Translations under genes and position numbers: made by a program
Shown: positions 1,090 through 11,423 of the stretch, piece by piece
Layout of the letters: each line of letters opens with the position of its first letter
How positions within the stretch are numbered: the first letter of the stretch is position 1
Virus record (IMG/VR): IMGVR_UViG_3300042305_001773
Span: 141,045-205,044 of that record
DNA from: a virus
Direction: 5' to 3' (one strand)
DNA length: 64,000 nt
Notes under the pieces: generated by a model
Database searches by the model: none
Told to the model about the DNA's origin: nothing
Seen by the model: only the letters and a program-made list of their open reading frames with translations

Positions 1090-2088
1090 TCACATCGAGA
1101 TTAAACGGCGGGTTGGAATCAATTCGTTCATATTTACAGGCGGCCGCAGATTAGCCGCAGCGGTGGGCCTGTACAGGTTTTGCTGCCGCTGGTCGGAACG
1201 CGACACGTTAAACGCGTTAAACTGATCTATCCGATCAATAAACGTGTTTGCAAACAGCGCCTGATCGTGGGTGTCTACTCGCGTATAACGACCAACAGTC
1301 GAGTCGTGCTGCGGGCGGAAAATGATATGCCCGCCGGCAACGACCGAGTGGCCGCAAAACGCGATAAGCGCATTGATCTGGTCGGCGTTTGCGATGATTG
1401 CGTAATCAACAACTTTGAGTCGCGACATTTCAATCGTCGGGTCATCCTCGGCGCGCGAATAGATCGACACCTGCATCAGCTTGCTTCCAACTACCTGCGC
1501 TTTTCCGGCAACAGTTACAAAACCGCGCAATGACGAGCTGCTGACCTGTGCTTCGCCGCCGATGTACGACATGCCGTCTAGCGCTACTTGGATTGCTACT
1601 GCGCGGCCGGCAACGCCGCTGCTGCCGCGAATTGTACAGCTGATTACACGCGCGGCGTCACGCACAAACGCGTCATCGTACACGTTAGTAGAACCAGATA
1701 CGGTGCCGCCATATGCGCGAGAGTTGCCCCACAGCTGGCTGTCTTCACCAACGTGCGCACGACCGCTCACAATAGCGTTATTTCGTACGCGCACATTATC
1801 GCGAACGACCGCGTTGCCGCACACGTGAGATCGGTCCATCACGCTGACTCGGCCCTCTACGGTGGCGTTGTGGTACACCTGCGCCCATTTAGTGACTAGT
1901 ACAGAATCAGCCACTTTTGCTGTGTCGGCGACCCAGCCATTGCCGTTTACGTGGCGATGCGCAAACACGCGTCCACGCCCGTCTTTGAAATCGTGTTTAG
2001 ATGCTCGCTTTTTTCGGGGTTTTACTGCGGGCATCTCGACCGTCGGCGCTTCAAGTACGCCGACGGCCCCGTTTTTCTGTTCCTCCAT
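1090..2088 (-). CDS. Left-handed beta-helix (hexapeptide-like repeat) protein, YdcK-like
   Basis: Residues 40-215 consist of short imperfect repeats in which a small hydrophobic residue recurs every 5-6 positions (WVADTAKVADSVLV, ATVEGRVSVMDRSHVCGNAV, AHVGEDSQLWGN). This is the hallmark of left-handed beta-helix proteins such as YdcK. A lysine-rich segment (KPRKKRASKHDFKDG) precedes the helix. The C-terminal 100 residues have a different fold and contain two His (CGHSVVAGGH). The start is the ATG at 2088, overlapping the upstream stop as TGATG. In phages such proteins can be tail-spike-like or enzymatic; here it lies far from the tail genes, so no role is claimed. Confidence 0.7.
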   Translation of the reverse strand: MEEQKNGAVGVLEAPTVEMPAVKPRKKRASKHDFKDGRGRVFAHRHVNGNGWVADTAKVADSVLVTKWAQVYHNATVEGRVSVMDRSHVCGNAVVRDNVRVRNNAIVSGRAHVGEDSQLWGNSRAYGGTVSGSTNVYDDAFVRDAARVISCTIRGSSGVAGRAVAIQVALDGMSYIGGEAQVSSSSLRGFVTVAGKAQVVGSKLMQVSIYSRAEDDPTIEMSRLKVVDYAIIANADQINALIAFCGHSVVAGGHIIFRPQHDSTVGRYTRVDTHDQALFANTFIDRIDQFNAFNVSRSDQRQQNLYRPTAAANLRPPVNMNELIPTRRLISM

Positions 2089-3035
2089 CACGACTCCATG
2101 GGAAGTACACGACGCCGCGGGGCGTTCGTGATCAGGTTGTCCAGCGCGGTCTTGACTTCGCCCATCTGCTGGGTCAAGTTCTGCCGCAAGTTGGTGTTCT
2201 TGCGCAGATCTTTCACGTCGACACCCGAAACAATGTCAGTAGCGCGCTGAATTAAGTTATCCAGCTGCGCGTTTGAGCGAATATTCATTTGCCGGAAGTT
2301 GTCATAAAACTCTTTAAAGTTTTCGATTGCAGAGTTTTGAAACTTCTTTTTCGTGCCGTCCGGTTCGTCGGTTAGCCGCTCGATCAGGTGCGAGATCATG
2401 TCCTGTAGCTGCTCGGCAAACGCGTTTTCAGCCATGACTACCGCTGTCTCGAACCGATGCTGCACGCGCTGCTGTTCCTGCTGATACAGCTCAGGATTGA
2501 ACGTCATCAGATAGTTCGGCGGATCGACCGGCGGGTACTCCCACCGAAGATCAAACACGCCTTCTAGCGACGGCGGATAGTCGTTGGGGTTGTACAGATC
2601 GCCTAGCTTTTCGCGGGCGGCGACTTTGATCGCTTCGTATTCCAGCTGCAGGTTTGCGGCCGCCACCACAAGCTGCTCTTTGTATTCGCGCATCCGGGTT
2701 TCAAACGCGCCGATGTCAGCCTGCTTGATGAGGCGCACGCCTTCCTGCGGATATGGCAGCGTCATGGAGCGCCAGTACGCCGACGCCTGACTTTTGAGCG
2801 TTGTCAGTACACGATAAGTTGTATTCTTAGTATCAATCAGGCGCTTGGATGCCGTGACCAGATCCGTGGCTGCGTGAAACGTATCCGCGGCTTGCTTGGT
2901 CTGCGCGTCCGAAAGCTTGCGCTGCGTTCCTAGCCACGAGAACGACAGCTTGACCGCACCCATCGTCTGACGCAGCTCGCTTGCAGTCTGCTCGACTGTT
3001 GTGTTTTCTTCGGGCGTTGTGTCGGCTGTAGACAT
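2088..3035 (-). CDS. Hypothetical protein, possibly DUF3150-like, 315 aa
   Basis: A mostly helical protein with an early segment VKLSFSWLGTQRKLSD, a proline-rich middle (SLEGVFDLRWEYPPVDPP) and long amphipathic helices rich in Gln/Glu (ELYQQEQQRVQHRFETAV). The layout recalls DUF3150-type phage/plasmid proteins, but I am not certain. A strong AAGGAG precedes the ATG at 3035. The gene abuts the upstream stop directly and overlaps the next gene by TGATG, placing it in one operon with the DUF1281-like protein and the beta-helix protein. Confidence 0.6.
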   Translation of the reverse strand: MSTADTTPEENTTVEQTASELRQTMGAVKLSFSWLGTQRKLSDAQTKQAADTFHAATDLVTASKRLIDTKNTTYRVLTTLKSQASAYWRSMTLPYPQEGVRLIKQADIGAFETRMREYKEQLVVAAANLQLEYEAIKVAAREKLGDLYNPNDYPPSLEGVFDLRWEYPPVDPPNYLMTFNPELYQQEQQRVQHRFETAVVMAENAFAEQLQDMISHLIERLTDEPDGTKKKFQNSAIENFKEFYDNFRQMNIRSNAQLDNLIQRATDIVSGVDVKDLRKNTNLRQNLTQQMGEVKTALDNLITNAPRRRVLPMES

Positions 3036-3635
3036 TCAGTCTCCTTCTTCGTCTGTGTCAAGTTCTTCTTCAATTGTTTGCTCCACCCATTCGTCTATCG
3101 CAAACGCCTTGACGAGATCGCGCGGTAATTTCGCTAGATCTTCAAAGTCGCTTGGGATGTTGAAATCTGTAAGCTTTCCGTCGCGGTACACACCACAGAA
3201 CCCTACGCCCGGCTCGAAGCAGTAGGCTGTGATATCAAAACCCTCAACGGTCCGCAGGTGGTCAAAGAATTGAATTGGGGGCGACCACGCGGAATCAAAC
3301 GTTAGCGTCAGCTGCGTAGCTTTTGCCGGAAGTCGGCGGGGCGACTGATCTGTCTCGCGCCCTACGTCCCACTTTGTCCCCCAATGACCGACCTGCCAGT
3401 CGTACCAGTTTCTCGCTCCGTACAACTCGATGTTTTGCCGTTCTTGCGCCTCTAAAGCCAGTTGTGCGTCAGACCCGGTAGGGCCAGCACAACCGGCGAT
3501 AGTCGCTTTTAATTCGGCTGGGCACGGCAGAAATGTACCCATCAGACAACCACTGTTCCATGCGCGCACCAACTTGTGCAACTGCTCCGGGTCGTTGTGT
3601 TTAAACGTAACTCTGTTGGCGCACCAGTTAGGCAT
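3036..3635 (-). CDS. DUF1281/YubB ferredoxin-like (Api92-like) protein
   Basis: The N-terminus MPNWCANRVTF is the signature of the Api92/YubB family (MPNWC-N-V), whose members occur on plasmids and phages and have a ferredoxin-like C-terminal domain. Later blocks (NWYDWQVGHWGTKWDV and a SAWSPP segment) fit the family. The C-terminus is acidic (EEELDTDEEGD). The start is the ATG at 3635; a TTG 15 bases upstream would add five residues before the conserved MPNW. Function is unknown across the family. The hairpin at 3658-3681 separates it from the AAA ATPase gene. Confidence 0.75.
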   Translation of the reverse strand: MPNWCANRVTFKHNDPEQLHKLVRAWNSGCLMGTFLPCPAELKATIAGCAGPTGSDAQLALEAQERQNIELYGARNWYDWQVGHWGTKWDVGRETDQSPRRLPAKATQLTLTFDSAWSPPIQFFDHLRTVEGFDITAYCFEPGVGFCGVYRDGKLTDFNIPSDFEDLAKLPRDLVKAFAIDEWVEQTIEEELDTDEEGD

Positions 3636-3657
3636 AATGTTTGCCGGCAATCCGCAG

Positions 3658-3699: not shown

Positions 3700-5184
3700 T
3701 TAGCCTTTCGCCGGCGCCGCGACACGGCGCGGGCGCTGCGTTGTAACCGCCGGCTTACCAACACGCGTGTAAATACCGCGGTTGTCAGCCGACAGGCAGC
3801 GACCTTCAGCCCAGCCGCGCAGACGCTCAATCTGCTCGGCCGACGTCACCGAAATCGGTACCACGTTCTGTGCCGCTTCAACAAGCGGGATATCGAGCAG
3901 CGCCGCGAGCCTGCAGCACGACTTGATCTCGGCGCCGGTCCAGTTGGCGTCATCCGGCTTTTCCTGCGACTCGTCTACGCCGAAGTGCTTCAGGTAGATA
4001 TCCCAGATCGCCGCGCGCTGATCGGCGCCGGGCAGATCCACAAAGAAGATACCGTCGAAGCGCTCGGCGCGGGCAAACGGCGCCGGCAGCTGGCTGGCGT
4101 CGTTGCAGGTGCCGATGAAGAACACATCGGACGTGTGGTCGTTGAGCCACGTCAGCAGCGTGCCGAAAAGACGCGCCGAGACGCCCGAGTCTGTCTGGCC
4201 GGAGCTTCCGACGCCGGCAAGACCCTTCTCGATCTCGTCGACGAACAGAACGCACGGGGCCATGGCGTCGACCTGCTTGAGTGCACGCCGCATATTACCC
4301 TCGGACTCGCCCACGAACTTACCCATGAGCGAACCGAAATCCAGCATTACGGTCGGACGGCCGACCTCGTTGCCAAGTGCTTTGGCAAACTGCGACTTGC
4401 CGCAGCCCGGAGGCGACAGCAGTAGCACGCCCTTGGGGCGCTTTTCTACGTTGGTCTCACCCTGTCGTCGCATAGCGCGCAGGCAGAAACTCTTAAGGTT
4501 TTCGAGACCGCCAAGGTTCTCGAAGTTCGCGTCGCCACGATACAGCGTCATCGTTCCGCTCTTTTCGAGCGTCTGTGCCTTGATGCCCCAGATCGTATCC
4601 GGCGACAGCTTGTTATTGCGCACCAGCGACAGCGCGAACGCGTTCTCGGCCTCCTGCCGCGTCAGGCCGCGTGAGGCGTCGACGACAGCAGCTACGTCCT
4701 GCTCGGCCGGCTTGGCGAACGGAGAGCCGTCCGGGAACAGCTCGTTGCAGACCGTGGTCAGCTGCGGGAGATCCGGCAGCTCGTGATGCACTACCGTGAA
4801 CAGCTTCTCAACCTCGGGCTGCAGCTGCAGCACCGGCGCCACGATAATGATATGTTTGCCCTCGCCCTTGCCCTGCACCACACGATTGGCCAGAGCCTGC
4901 AGCACCTCGGGGTTACCAAGGAAGCGATGAAAATTCTTCAGGACGAGCAGCATCGGCTGCTTGGGCTGCGGCTGGTCGAGAAACCGCAACGCCTGAAGCG
5001 GGCCGGGAGCCGGGGCGGCACCCGAATACAGCTGGCGGTCGATGTCCCACACATCAAAACCCCAGTCCTTTTCTTCAGTTACGCGGCGAATCGACGCAAT
5101 TGCGTCATCGCACTCCTGTGATTCAACCCAGATGCCGGAGAAGCCGGCGCAAACCAGCTCCTTGATTTCTTTTTCGAGCGACAC
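3700..5184 (-). CDS. AAA+ ATPase, Ycf46-like
   Basis: The C-terminal half carries a complete AAA+ module: Walker A PPGCGKSQ (258-265), Walker B VLFVDEIEK (312-320), sensor-1 GTCN (358-361) and an arginine-finger segment ARAERFD (371-377). The N-terminal 150 residues resemble the Ycf46-type domain, beginning with a strand-helix that ends GIWVESQECDDA, followed by WDIDRQL. Such ATPases probably remodel an unknown partner. Translation starts with GTG at 5184, preceded by AAAGG. The next genes upstream encode DUF2997 and DUF1257 (Ycf35-like), a combination I recall from planctomycete genomes and mobile elements, so the three likely act together. Confidence 0.85.
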   Translation of the reverse strand: MSLEKEIKELVCAGFSGIWVESQECDDAIASIRRVTEEKDWGFDVWDIDRQLYSGAAPAPGPLQALRFLDQPQPKQPMLLVLKNFHRFLGNPEVLQALANRVVQGKGEGKHIIIVAPVLQLQPEVEKLFTVVHHELPDLPQLTTVCNELFPDGSPFAKPAEQDVAAVVDASRGLTRQEAENAFALSLVRNNKLSPDTIWGIKAQTLEKSGTMTLYRGDANFENLGGLENLKSFCLRAMRRQGETNVEKRPKGVLLLSPPGCGKSQFAKALGNEVGRPTVMLDFGSLMGKFVGESEGNMRRALKQVDAMAPCVLFVDEIEKGLAGVGSSGQTDSGVSARLFGTLLTWLNDHTSDVFFIGTCNDASQLPAPFARAERFDGIFFVDLPGADQRAAIWDIYLKHFGVDESQEKPDDANWTGAEIKSCCRLAALLDIPLVEAAQNVVPISVTSAEQIERLRGWAEGRCLSADNRGIYTRVGKPAVTTQRPRRVAAPAKG

Positions 5185-5223
5185 GTGTGACCTTTGGTTT
5201 GGTTTGGAAAAGACCCGCTATTG

Positions 5224-5415
5224 TCAGTTGCTTTCAGCGATCTGCTCGTCGTTGCTGGCGGCGTAGAACTCGCCCGTCAGCTGCTCGTCCACTTTTGCGC
5301 CCAGCGCTTGCTCAAGCGCGCGGGTTGCGTCCTGACAAGAGCTACCGGTAAAGCCGCTCGTTTCGATCTTGGTGCCGCCCTTGGGGTCGACAATGATTTC
5401 GATGGTCTTCGACAT
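5224..5415 (-). CDS. DUF2997 family protein, 63 aa
   Basis: MSKTIEIIVDPKGGTKIETS followed by GFTGSSCQDATRALEQALG is the DUF2997 signature: a short beta-hairpin, then GFxGxSC and a helix ending LEQALG. Members are small and partner with DUF1257 and AAA ATPases. The conserved Cys of SSC is present. The start has GGGAGG eight bases upstream and lies two bases from the DUF1257 stop, so the pair is translationally linked. Molecular function is unknown. Confidence 0.85.
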   Translation of the reverse strand: MSKTIEIIVDPKGGTKIETSGFTGSSCQDATRALEQALGAKVDEQLTGEFYAASNDEQIAESN

Positions 5416-5417
5416 GC

Positions 5418-5783
5418 TTAGAAACCTCCCGTCAGGCTGAGTTTGACCGAACCGTCCGGCAGCATTTCCTCGAACACCGAGTAGCCGCCCTTCTGCGCCT
5501 CATAGATCGCCTTTTCCACCGCGTACGCCTGCAGGAAATGATCCAGCTCTTCCTGCTTGCCCCACGCGCCGTTGTAGTTGTCGTACGCCGCGGCACCCGT
5601 CTCCGTGTTAAACACGGCCGGATACTGCCAGCCGGGAAGCTTTACAGCGAGGCCGTCCGCCGACTGCCCGGCAAACAGCACATGGTGCCCGGCTTTCGGG
5701 GCCTCAAGCCCGAGACGCTTGCAGGCCGCTTCAATCGCGGCGGCGTCCTTTACTTCCGTCTTGATCTGAACAATGTGAGACAT
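5418..5783 (-). CDS. DUF1257 family protein (Ycf35-like), 121 aa
   Basis: The sequence starts MSHIVQIKTEVKDAAAIEAA and contains the family blocks VKLPGWQYPAVF, AYDNYNGAWGKQEELD and FLQAYAVEKA. These match DUF1257, the family of plastid/cyanobacterial Ycf35. It is the first gene of the DUF1257-DUF2997-AAA run. No catalytic motif is apparent. The role is unknown; co-occurrence with a Ycf46-like ATPase suggests an adaptor or substrate of that ATPase (inference). Confidence 0.85.
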   Translation of the reverse strand: MSHIVQIKTEVKDAAAIEAACKRLGLEAPKAGHHVLFAGQSADGLAVKLPGWQYPAVFNTETGAAAYDNYNGAWGKQEELDHFLQAYAVEKAIYEAQKGGYSVFEEMLPDGSVKLSLTGGF

Positions 5784-7474: not shown

Positions 7475-7837
7475 TTATTTGCTGCTTCGGTAGTTGTCCG
7501 GCACGTTGCCGTCTTTGGTGCGAAGTACGCCGGCGTTTAGTTCTGGCCACTTTTCTAGCGAATGAATAGCGCCGATGACATTCCACGCCGCGTGCCCCAG
7601 ATGGTCTTCGCTGCGGTCGCCGTTCAAAAAATTATAGATGTGCGCGATCGCGTGATTCAGCAGGTCAGAGACGGGCATGCCGTTTTCCCAGTTGTATGGG
7701 CCAAATTTTTCAGCCCCTTCGTGGTAGGTCTGCGCGAGCGCCCGCAGACCGATCGGCGAAATTAGATCGTAACGCACGGCGTCACAATCAGCGCTGCGTA
7801 CCGCGCCAGTGTCGTACTCGTGACGTTCGTTACTCAT
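7475..7837 (-). CDS. dATP/dGTP diphosphohydrolase-like (DUF5664/MazZ-type) protein
   Basis: The sequence carries the phage family signature GAVRS, then DAVRYDLISPIGLRALAQ, YHEGAEKFGPYNWENGM, LLNHAIAHIYNF and DRSEDHLGHAAWN. These helices belong to an all-alpha MazG-like fold with acidic metal ligands and are annotated as the N-terminal domain of dATP/dGTP diphosphohydrolases. The likely role is trimming dNTP pools; relatives in some phages serve 2-aminoadenine genomes, but no PurZ or DatZ homologue is visible here. It ends in a TAATG overlap with the gene that starts at 7837. Confidence 0.8.
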   Translation of the reverse strand: MSNERHEYDTGAVRSADCDAVRYDLISPIGLRALAQTYHEGAEKFGPYNWENGMPVSDLLNHAIAHIYNFLNGDRSEDHLGHAAWNVIGAIHSLEKWPELNAGVLRTKDGNVPDNYRSSK

Positions 7838-9343: not shown

Positions 9344-9508
9344 TCACTTGCGAGTCGTTTCTTTGGCGGCGGCCGCTGCAACCTGACACATGTAACCGAG
9401 TACATTTGCCAGTCCAGCAAGACCGTATATGAAAACATGCCCAGTGTATTTGAGGCTGTCTTCAACCCATTGAAATTCAGACTCGCTACCGTTGTTATTG
9501 TGGTTCAT
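9344..9508 (-). CDS. Small membrane protein divergent to the terminase, 54 aa
   Basis: This short frame reads MNHNNNGSESEFQWVEDSLK, then a hydrophobic stretch (GHVFIYGLAGLANVLGYM) and a short Ala-rich tail ending KETTRK. A single membrane helix is likely. Its ATG (9508-9506) shares bases with the terminase ATG (9507-9509) in one CATG, the same arrangement as the pair at 17338-17341. It fills a gap that otherwise contains no gene. Function is unknown. Confidence 0.55.
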   Translation of the reverse strand: MNHNNNGSESEFQWVEDSLKYTGHVFIYGLAGLANVLGYMCQVAAAAAKETTRK

Positions 9509-11423
9509 GGATAAACCTGATCAAACAGTTACTGAAGCAGTTGACATGCCTTCCGTAGGCGTGCAATCACTTCTACAAGAATTAATCTCGATCGACGTGA
9601 CGGATGTGCATTCTGTTCACGCGCGTGCCGCTGTTTTGCAGCAGCTCGCGGGTCGGCATGCTTTCCCGTCGCTCGAACCTATTTTGCCTTTGGTTCTGAA
9701 CCTTAATGGACGCCCGTACAGCATTCAGAATCATATGCCTTTTTCCCCACTTTTCCGGCTACTGACGCCGAAAAATCAAGTGTGGTGCACGGGGCGTCAG
9801 GTATCAAAATCGACCAGCCTAGCAGCGCACGGAGTTGTAGTTGCCAACTCTATCCCGTTCTTCAAAACGTTATTCATCACACCGTTGTACGAACAGATAC
9901 GCCGGTTCTCGAATAACTATGTGCGTCCGTTTATCGATCAGTCTCCTGTGAAGTCGCAATGGAGCGGCACGACGACCGAGAATTCAGTTCTGCAAAGATC
10001 TTTTAAAAACAACTCAATGATGTTGTTTAGCTTTGCGCTTTTAGATTCGGATCGTGTGCGTGGTGTTTCTGCAGACCGCGTGTGCATCGACGAAGTTCAG
10101 GACATGGATCCTGATCACGTGCCGATCATTCAAGAAACGATGTCTTACTCCAAATGGGCGACGAGTTATTACACAGGAACGCCGAAGACGCTAGATAACT
10201 TAATTTACGGATTGTATAAACGATCATCACAGGCCGAATGGTTTATACCTTGTCATTCATGCAAGCACTGGAGCATCCCTTCGCTTGAGTATGACTTAGA
10301 TAAAATGATCGGCCCATACAGCATTCATATCAGCGAGAACTATCCGGGCACCGTCTGCGCTAAATGTCAGAAACCGATCAGCCCAAGGCATGGTCGGTGG
10401 GTGCATAGATATCCCGAACGCCGCTGGCAATTTGCCGGGTATCACGTACCGCAGATGATACTACCGCTTCATTTCTCCGACCCTGAAAAGTGGTCAACTC
10501 TATTGTTGAAGAGGGAAGGCTTTGGGAATATGACCCAAGCGCAGTTCTACAACGAGGTAATGGGAGAAAGCGTTGATACCGGTCAGAAGCTCATCAGCGA
10601 AACTGATTTGAAGGCTGCGTGCGTGCTAGACTGGGAAAACAAGAAAGAACCAGACCCTAAGTGCTTTGCAAATCTCTCGAACTACAAACATCGCATCCTT
10701 GCGGTCGACTGGGGCGGTGGCGGAGAAGCAGGTATTAGTTTCACCGTGCTTACTGTGCTGGGGTTCCGCCCAGATGGGACCATCGACACGCTGTGGGCCA
10801 AGCGCCTGCTTATTGGCGGCGATCATTTGGCCGAAGCGGTTGAATGTATGCGCTGGTCTAACTTGTTTAATTGCGATTTTGTCGCTCACGATTACACGGG
10901 CGCCGGCACGGTCCGCGAAACGGTCATGGTGCAGGCTGGGTTTAATCTAGAGCGAGTCTTGGCGATGCGACTTGTTCGTTCCGCGTCGCAAGATTTGATG
11001 GTGTTCAAACCGCCGACAGAGATCAATCATCGAGCGCACTATAGCCTCGACAAAACGCGGTCGTTGCTGTACACGTGTCAGGCGATCAAGCTGAAGCAAG
11101 TCCGCTTCTTCCAGTATGACTGGGCGTCGCAGGACTCGCCGGGCTTGGTGTCGGACTTTCTTGCGCTGGTAGAAAGTAAAGCCGAGTCTAGACTAGGCGG
11201 CGATATTTATACCATTACAAGGAACACGTTGTTGACTGACGACTTTGCGCAAGCTGTTAACCTAGGCTGCGCCGCTCTTTGGCACGTGAATAACGCGTGG
11301 CCTAATTTCGCGGAGATAGCTGGCGTAGCCCGGTTAAGCGAGCGTGTTGTTAAGGCAGAGACGCCGATGGATGACGACTGGGCGGATGATTCCATCGGGC
11401 GAAACTACTTTGGCGGGTATTAA
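9507..11423 (+). CDS. terL: Terminase large subunit
   Basis: The motor that packages viral DNA. The ATPase domain has a terminase-type Walker A GRQVSKST (96-103), Walker B VCIDEVQD (192-199) and coupling motif TGTP (223-226). An inserted zinc knuckle follows (Cys249/252, Cys284/287). The nuclease domain begins with the first metal-binding Asp in RILAVDWGGGG (Asp401). Length is 638 residues from ATG 9507; a TTG at 9492 would add five residues. It is one of only three plus-strand genes and is isolated from the late operon. Its stop codon overlaps the convergent gene's stop in TTAA (11420-11423). Confidence 0.93.
   Translation: MDKPDQTVTEAVDMPSVGVQSLLQELISIDVTDVHSVHARAAVLQQLAGRHAFPSLEPILPLVLNLNGRPYSIQNHMPFSPLFRLLTPKNQVWCTGRQVSKSTSLAAHGVVVANSIPFFKTLFITPLYEQIRRFSNNYVRPFIDQSPVKSQWSGTTTENSVLQRSFKNNSMMLFSFALLDSDRVRGVSADRVCIDEVQDMDPDHVPIIQETMSYSKWATSYYTGTPKTLDNLIYGLYKRSSQAEWFIPCHSCKHWSIPSLEYDLDKMIGPYSIHISENYPGTVCAKCQKPISPRHGRWVHRYPERRWQFAGYHVPQMILPLHFSDPEKWSTLLLKREGFGNMTQAQFYNEVMGESVDTGQKLISETDLKAACVLDWENKKEPDPKCFANLSNYKHRILAVDWGGGGEAGISFTVLTVLGFRPDGTIDTLWAKRLLIGGDHLAEAVECMRWSNLFNCDFVAHDYTGAGTVRETVMVQAGFNLERVLAMRLVRSASQDLMVFKPPTEINHRAHYSLDKTRSLLYTCQAIKLKQVRFFQYDWASQDSPGLVSDFLALVESKAESRLGGDIYTITRNTLLTDDFAQAVNLGCAALWHVNNAWPNFAEIAGVARLSERVVKAETPMDDDWADDSIGRNYFGGY

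Follow-up and report, generated by a model that had tools for sequence, protein, structure and literature searches.

Phage-borne module of an AAA ATPase with DUF1257-like, DUF2997, and DUF3150-like partners and a shared C-terminal tail

Three adjacent genes of a tailed phage, encoding a DUF1257-like (Ycf35-like) protein, a DUF2997 protein, and an AAA ATPase, were found together repeatedly in phages, bacteria, and plasmids, and the AAA protein shared a short C-terminal tail with unrelated proteins encoded close to it. The trio belongs with two more genes, for a DUF3150-like protein and an 88-aa protein (P88), in a module of five. We give an even chance to the reading that this module is a mobile, ATP-driven protein-remodeling (chaperone or assembly) machine whose clients carry the shared tail and for which DUF1257 and DUF2997 are candidate tail readers. 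Ycf35, Ycf46, and DUF2997 are long-unsolved proteins kept from cyanobacteria to algal plastids; the phage version, with its small fixed gene set, provides a compact system for their study. A search of the literature, mostly without subscription papers, returned no description of AAA, DUF1257, and DUF2997 as one system.

Results

The window, the whole 64-kb stretch analyzed here, is the final part of a phage record of 205,044 bases in IMG/VR. The presence of a terminase large subunit gene (9492-11423 of the window), together with the IMG/VR entry, indicated that the record is that of a tailed phage. The genes of the trio follow one another head to tail, all on the minus strand, in the order DUF1257-like (5418..5783, 121 aa), DUF2997 (5224..5415, 63 aa), and AAA (3700..5184, 494 aa, GTG start); 2 bases separate the first pair and 39 bases the second. 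The initial annotation had described three adjacent genes with family signatures and 2-40 base spacing, and the coordinates, order, and gaps were confirmed, with the DUF1257 signature sub-threshold by Pfam alone. On the same strand were the DUF3150-like gene (2088..3035, 315 aa) and the P88 gene (816..1082), whose product carries the pattern 'RASHVEP..W..DLSPV.GP.LGPF'. A hexapeptide-repeat (left-handed beta-helix-like) protein, specific to the phage clade and a proposed client, was encoded at 1090..2091 (minus strand). The Api92/DUF1281_C-like protein encoded at 3036..3650 (minus strand) has no tail; only some members of the phage clade have it inside the module, of which it is a doubtful member. 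Purine-rich stretches preceded the starts of the DUF1257-like, DUF2997, and DUF3150-like genes. Immediately upstream of the module, the N-terminal domain of a dATP/dGTP diphosphohydrolase (PF18909, 3.6e-16) was encoded on the minus strand at 7475-7837.

The DUF2997 product passed the PF11211 gathering cut-off (59.7 bits against 24.1; 2.4e-16), and its Cys27 was invariant in the viral alignment. The DUF1257-like product, which has an MSH start, conserved D68 and Y87, and no C-terminal Arg tail, scored 17.8 bits against PF06868 (17 in a second scan) and failed the gathering cut-off of 22.2 on its own. An iterated profile seeded with the window copy reached a PGAP-named DUF1257 protein at 6.5e-16; this profile link, the MSH start, and the adjoining DUF2997 gene indicated that the protein, although sub-threshold by Pfam alone, belongs with DUF1257, and it is termed DUF1257-like here. 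Fusions of DUF1257 and DUF2997 in a single ORF occur naturally in some Clostridia. The AlphaFold model of such a fusion was of fair quality (pLDDT 81), and Foldseek returned no significant structural relative for it in the PDB (E > 0.01).

The AAA product matched PF00004 at 96.9 bits (cut-off 21.2) and consisted of an N-terminal domain (residues ~1-215), a catalytic core, and the C-terminal tail. The core contained Walker A (GCGK), Walker B (DE), sensor-1 Asn361, and the Arg-finger candidates R372 and R375; these residues were kept in at least 115 of the 116 AAA proteins compared. By sequence, the core was closest to classical AAAs of the CDC48/VCP type. Comparison of the N-terminal domain with the core by hhalign gave a probability of 38% and an E-value of 3e-4 over a lid-like part only (columns 120-193), against 0.2 for shuffled controls, weakly suggesting a type II (two-domain) protein with a degenerate first domain (D1). 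An AAA that adjoins DUF1257 and DUF2997 on a cyanobacterial plasmid matched the window AAA at 32% over 94% of the length, and the label 'Ycf46-like' given in the initial annotation is plausible.

In close relatives the AAA gene was interrupted within the Walker B codons (FVD^EIEKG) by a group I intron (RF00028) and its ORF for a homing endonuclease of the HNH type (L038:6939-7721, L041:6384-7171, L042:6954-7741, and L043:6939-7721; also L039 and L052), whereas the window gene is uninterrupted. An intron at this position fits a conserved, expressed phage gene. In four other relatives the AAA core was segmentally permuted, with the Walker B segment ahead of Walker A (L058:2795-4276, L060:2087-3619, L064:5746-7278, and L070:4689-6281, the last being gp103 of Tunturiibacter phage Tunturi_3). 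The respective positions of Walker B and Walker A were 262/304 in L058, with 273/317 and 286/329 as further pairs. These loci kept the module partners, partly or fully, and no earlier description of a permuted AAA was found in the literature searched.

The initial annotation had placed the trio in planctomycetes, and a neighborhood survey demonstrated that it recurs well outside this genome. Viral contigs scanned with the AAA yielded 64 loci, 54 of which held all three genes, the remainder being truncated or divergent; a repeat scan with a diverse AAA alignment found the trio in nearly all loci. As an independent anchor that avoided choice by AAA, DUF2997 was searched in 199 Planctomycetota genomes. 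Within 1.5 kb of the 30 hits above the cut-off (loci of ~3 kb each), DUF1257 was present in 29/30 and AAA in 25/30, confirming the planctomycete occurrence. With both anchors recovering it, the trio is not a product of chance. Among five annotated isolate phages examined, three (Rhizobium L338C, Rhodobacter RcTiptonus, and Tunturi_3) had genes like DUF1257 and DUF2997 by profile, under the label 'hypothetical', with no match to either profile in the other two, Mycobacterium Firecracker and a Streptococcus satellite. The AAA occurred without detectable DUF1257 or DUF2997 in the relatives L056, L057, L059-L061, and L064.

Clustering of the neighbors at 80 bacterial loci showed that homologs of both the DUF3150-like gene and the P88 gene adjoin the trio. 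A Pfam scan of the window's 2088-3035 product gave no match. A homolog at locus L205 scored 79.8 bits against PF11348 (cut-off 24.9), and the profile of the DUF3150-like protein reached a PGAP-named DUF3150 protein at 2.6e-39, which linked it by profile to the DUF3150 group. Its AF2 model had a pLDDT of 89, with no significant relative in the PDB by Foldseek (E > 0.01). On a plasmid of Candidatus Manganitrophus, PGAP names AAA, DUF1257, DUF2997, and DUF3150 in a single run, followed by a gene of the 88-aa type. The planctomycete order DUF1257-DUF2997-AAA-DUF3150-P88 is that of the phage, which has two extra genes inserted. The intact module of the initial annotation is incomplete, its boundary having been set too small, since the DUF3150-like and 88-aa proteins recur with the trio. 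Separately, gp96 of Tunturi_3 (L070:8384-9343), labeled 'HNH endonuclease', matched the DUF3150-like family, and that label is a probable misannotation.

Phages, planctomycetes, and a plasmid of Nitrospirota all held the five-gene set, and most of the five genes were also found in IncC plasmid backbones. On the IncC plasmid pEC2-NDM-3 (L288, 6752-11430), AAA, DUF1257-like, and DUF2997 genes were consecutive, with a P88-like gene nearby and parB a few genes away; a DUF3150-like protein was not clearly present. A cyanobacterial plasmid carried DUF1257, DUF2997, and AAA inside 4 kb, and Blastopirellula marina held two copies of the gene set, one near a serine recombinase. Plasmid records matching the AAA numbered 712, of which 594 were conjugative. 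In a tree of 121 AAA sequences, built by a quick method with no bootstrap, the window AAA was within a clade of 47 rows (SH-aLRT 100) comprising 31 viruses, 14 bacteria, and 2 plasmids. Among bacteria, planctomycetes were closest to the window AAA, and the IncC AAA, very divergent, formed a long branch. The mixing of viruses, planctomycetes, and plasmids in one clade indicated that genes have probably passed between phages and planctomycetes more than once. Presence in phages, plasmids, and chromosomes, with a mixed and supported AAA clade, fits the portability and the small partners that the initial annotation proposed for the ATPase machine. Of the 80 bacterial loci, 20 had a radical-SAM/4Fe-4S gene (PF13353) next to the AAA module, one of them at L141:988-1581. 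In a Treponema MAG (L087:1751-10267), a relative of the AAA, a radical SAM gene, and DUF2997 lay within a contractile-tail cluster (sheath, tube, and hub).

The AAA and DUF3150-like proteins, unrelated to each other, shared a short C-terminal tail centered on one nearly invariant Arg (..RPRRVAAPAKG in the window AAA; ..APRRRVLPMES, with Arg308 invariant, in the DUF3150-like protein), and the hexapeptide-repeat protein ended similarly (..PTRRLISM). Tail sharing among these three proteins is a new observation of this study. With a motif defined after inspection of the AAA and DUF3150 tails, one Arg-x-hydrophobic pattern was present in 69/85 distinct tails of the AAA, 52/61 of the DUF3150-like protein, and 23/25 of the hexapeptide-repeat protein, and in 3/3 of a small 94-aa protein that three relatives encode between AAA and DUF3150-like. 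The pattern was rare elsewhere (DUF1257, 1/57; P88, 1/45; other ORFs, ~6%, near background), and DUF2997 lacked it. All six Arg codons were used in the tails, which indicated a feature under selection as protein; a DNA- or RNA-level cause was ruled out by this codon use. Across the whole phage proteome a loose form of the pattern was not enriched (9 seen, 8.4 expected), so the tail claim rests on conservation within families. The tail of the window clade has drifted (RRRV instead of R-x-I-D-L), and the AAA of the cyanobacterial plasmid (L287) lacked one. A 197-aa ORF elsewhere in the phage record (134032-134625, minus strand, outside the window) ends ..KKNRRRVVAMAE, resembling the module tails, and is a possible further client.

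Only the bacterial-neighbor test took the AAA-derived motif to other proteins. Genes within 3 kb of the AAA in a distant chromosomal clade were searched for R-x-[ILVM]-[DE]-[FLIVM] at their exact end. The motif ended 18 of 252 same-strand neighbors (0.14 expected) against 0 of 215 opposite-strand ORFs, many of the matches being interrelated (one Melainabacteria family and one array), so that the effective number is below 18. At least the Melainabacteria and Brevibacillus matches were independent; an Amycolatopsis ORF was possibly miscalled. The array (L119:305-5347) consisted of seven proteins of 87-233 aa in a single run upstream of the AAA, all ending ER-x-[ILV]-D-[LFI]; it included three tail matches beyond the 3 kb, and HHH_3 domains were present in the two proteins tested. 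Many tailed neighbors of bacterial AAAs were predicted membrane proteins. On the IncC plasmid, two membrane-type neighbors ended KRKIILD and the AAA ended GRKLAIED.

Discussion

Protein remodeling, proposed in the initial annotation, was still the best reading, with the activity inferred. It was supported by the recurrence of the trio and of the five genes, the DUF1257-DUF2997 fusions, the conserved catalytic residues, and the sharing of the tail. The AAA would form a hexameric ring, as expected from its family, with the intact AAA domain as motor and the N-terminal domain probably regulatory or client-binding. The tailed proteins (Arg-x-hydrophobic-x-hydrophobic) would be clients or partners, namely the DUF3150-like and hexapeptide proteins of the phage and, in some bacteria, membrane proteins and proteins with HHH domains. 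An adaptor role, in which a protein reads the tail and delivers tailed proteins to the ring for remodeling or assembly, would fall most plausibly to the small conserved proteins that lack a tail: DUF1257, DUF2997, and perhaps the 88-aa protein. Neither the DUF3150-like model nor the DUF1257-DUF2997 model had a significant Foldseek relative, leaving tail binding without structural support. Also weighing against this reading are the definition of the tail pattern after inspection of the tails, its drift in the window clade, its lack of enrichment over the phage proteome, the relatedness of many of the bacterial-neighbor matches, the relatives whose AAA has no detectable DUF1257 or DUF2997, and the untailed AAA of L287. 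Because the module was kept across the phage clade, it may serve a core phage step, most likely the assembly of the particle or of a replication complex, or another such step. A bolder proposal, which we lean more to doubting than to accepting, is that this is a new type of AAA machine, in which motor and clients bear the same C-terminal address tag (R-x-hydrophobic-acidic-hydrophobic-COOH), DUF1257 and DUF2997 read the tag, and mobile elements have repeatedly adopted the system.

Redox or metal-cofactor maturation, in which the AAA and DUF1257/DUF2997 would aid the maturation or repair of an Fe-S or redox protein with the DUF2997 Cys as cofactor or persulfide relay, is an unlikely alternative. 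The invariance of Cys27, the ferredoxin gene fed7 that adjoins ycf35 and duf2997 in cyanobacteria (PMC4284462), and the radical-SAM genes of the bacterial loci are consistent with it; however, the radical-SAM gene was missing from 60 of the 80 loci, and the proteins scanned around the phage module included neither a ferredoxin nor a radical SAM protein. The phage record also yielded no CobT_C, the one family searched as the VWA/CobT partner of MoxR-VWA systems; a chelatase reading was rejected on this absence.

Two further alternatives appear quite improbable, to the same degree. Defense or counter-defense had been raised earlier as a role and went unsupported here. An anti-phage or inter-element conflict system on mobile elements (defense, superinfection exclusion, or counter-defense) would account for the patchy, mobile spread over phages, plasmids, and recombinase-flanked loci, and PADLOC did report IetA matches. 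The NCBIfam IetA equivalog, however, scored 53.5 bits against a cut-off of 510, so that the PADLOC/NCBIfam matches are those of a generic AAA; no IetS subtilase (peptidase S8) was found in the ten module-side proteins scanned, and neither a subtilase partner nor a toxin-like gene was seen in the module. Unlike typical accessory defense genes, it was kept throughout the phage clade, and the group I intron in relatives' AAA genes is of a kind frequent in conserved phage genes. The other alternative is a replication, partition, or DNA-transaction helper, whose AAA would remodel nucleoprotein complexes. Against this, the classical-AAA core, CDC48/VCP-like by sequence, points to protein substrates and many tailed neighbors are predicted membrane proteins, even though a few genes separate the IncC copy from parB, the replicative helicase is encoded near the Rhizobium phage copy, and HHH domains occur in the tailed neighbors at L119. 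A role as auxiliary metabolic genes, tuning the physiology of the host, is very improbable: Ycf46 (Slr0374) mutants of Synechocystis, where Ycf46 acts in CO2 use, show lowered EcaB carbonic anhydrase activity (Jiang 2015, cited in PMC7496141), but the closest relatives of the phage module are planctomycetes, not phototrophs, and the DUF3150-like protein, P88, and tails are outside the published cyanobacterial cluster.

Under the protein-remodeling reading, the shared tail offers a direct binding test and a means of predicting clients among proteins of unknown function. If the address tag is real, clients could be predicted in thousands of genomes, including those of cyanobacteria and IncC resistance plasmids. 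The gene set is also part of the backbone of those IncC plasmids by which carbapenem resistance spreads, giving the role of the module there practical interest.

The module resembles several known systems in part. Like the Ycf35-DUF2997-fed7 cluster and Ycf46 of cyanobacteria and plastids, it has DUF1257 next to DUF2997 and an AAA that falls in the same broad family; unlike the fed7 cluster, it includes the AAA gene in its operon, lacks a ferredoxin, and further comprises the DUF3150-like protein, P88, and C-terminal tails. The IncC backbone shares with the phage the row of AAA, DUF1257-like, and DUF2997, the nearby P88-like gene, and tailed neighbors, differing in its divergent AAA and in a DUF3150-like protein that is not clearly present. 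In the MoxR/CobS-DUF3150-VWA (CobT-like) clusters of phages and archaeal viruses, an AAA motor is likewise encoded with a DUF3150 protein. In cyanophage MinM2, DUF3150 adjoins MoxR and VWA, and an archaeal virus depends on a MoxR-vWA pair to assemble its tail (PMC7824862). Unlike in those clusters, the motor of the module is a classical AAA, and DUF1257 and DUF2997 replace VWA as conserved partners. Pvc15, a contractile-injection ATPase, has tandem AAA domains, one of them active, and loads peptide-tagged cargo (PMC11495950). Pvc15/Afp15 would resemble the module in having tagged cargo, if its tailed proteins are clients, and in a tandem AAA with one active domain, if its N-terminal domain is a degenerate AAA domain; the relative at L087 sits in a contractile-tail cluster. 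The Pvc15 cargo signal is N-terminal, unlike that proposed for the module, and the abstract of that paper mentions no DUF1257/DUF2997/DUF3150 set. We read the MoxR-VWA and Pvc15 parallels as analogies, which may illustrate how such a motor could work, rather than as membership in either system.
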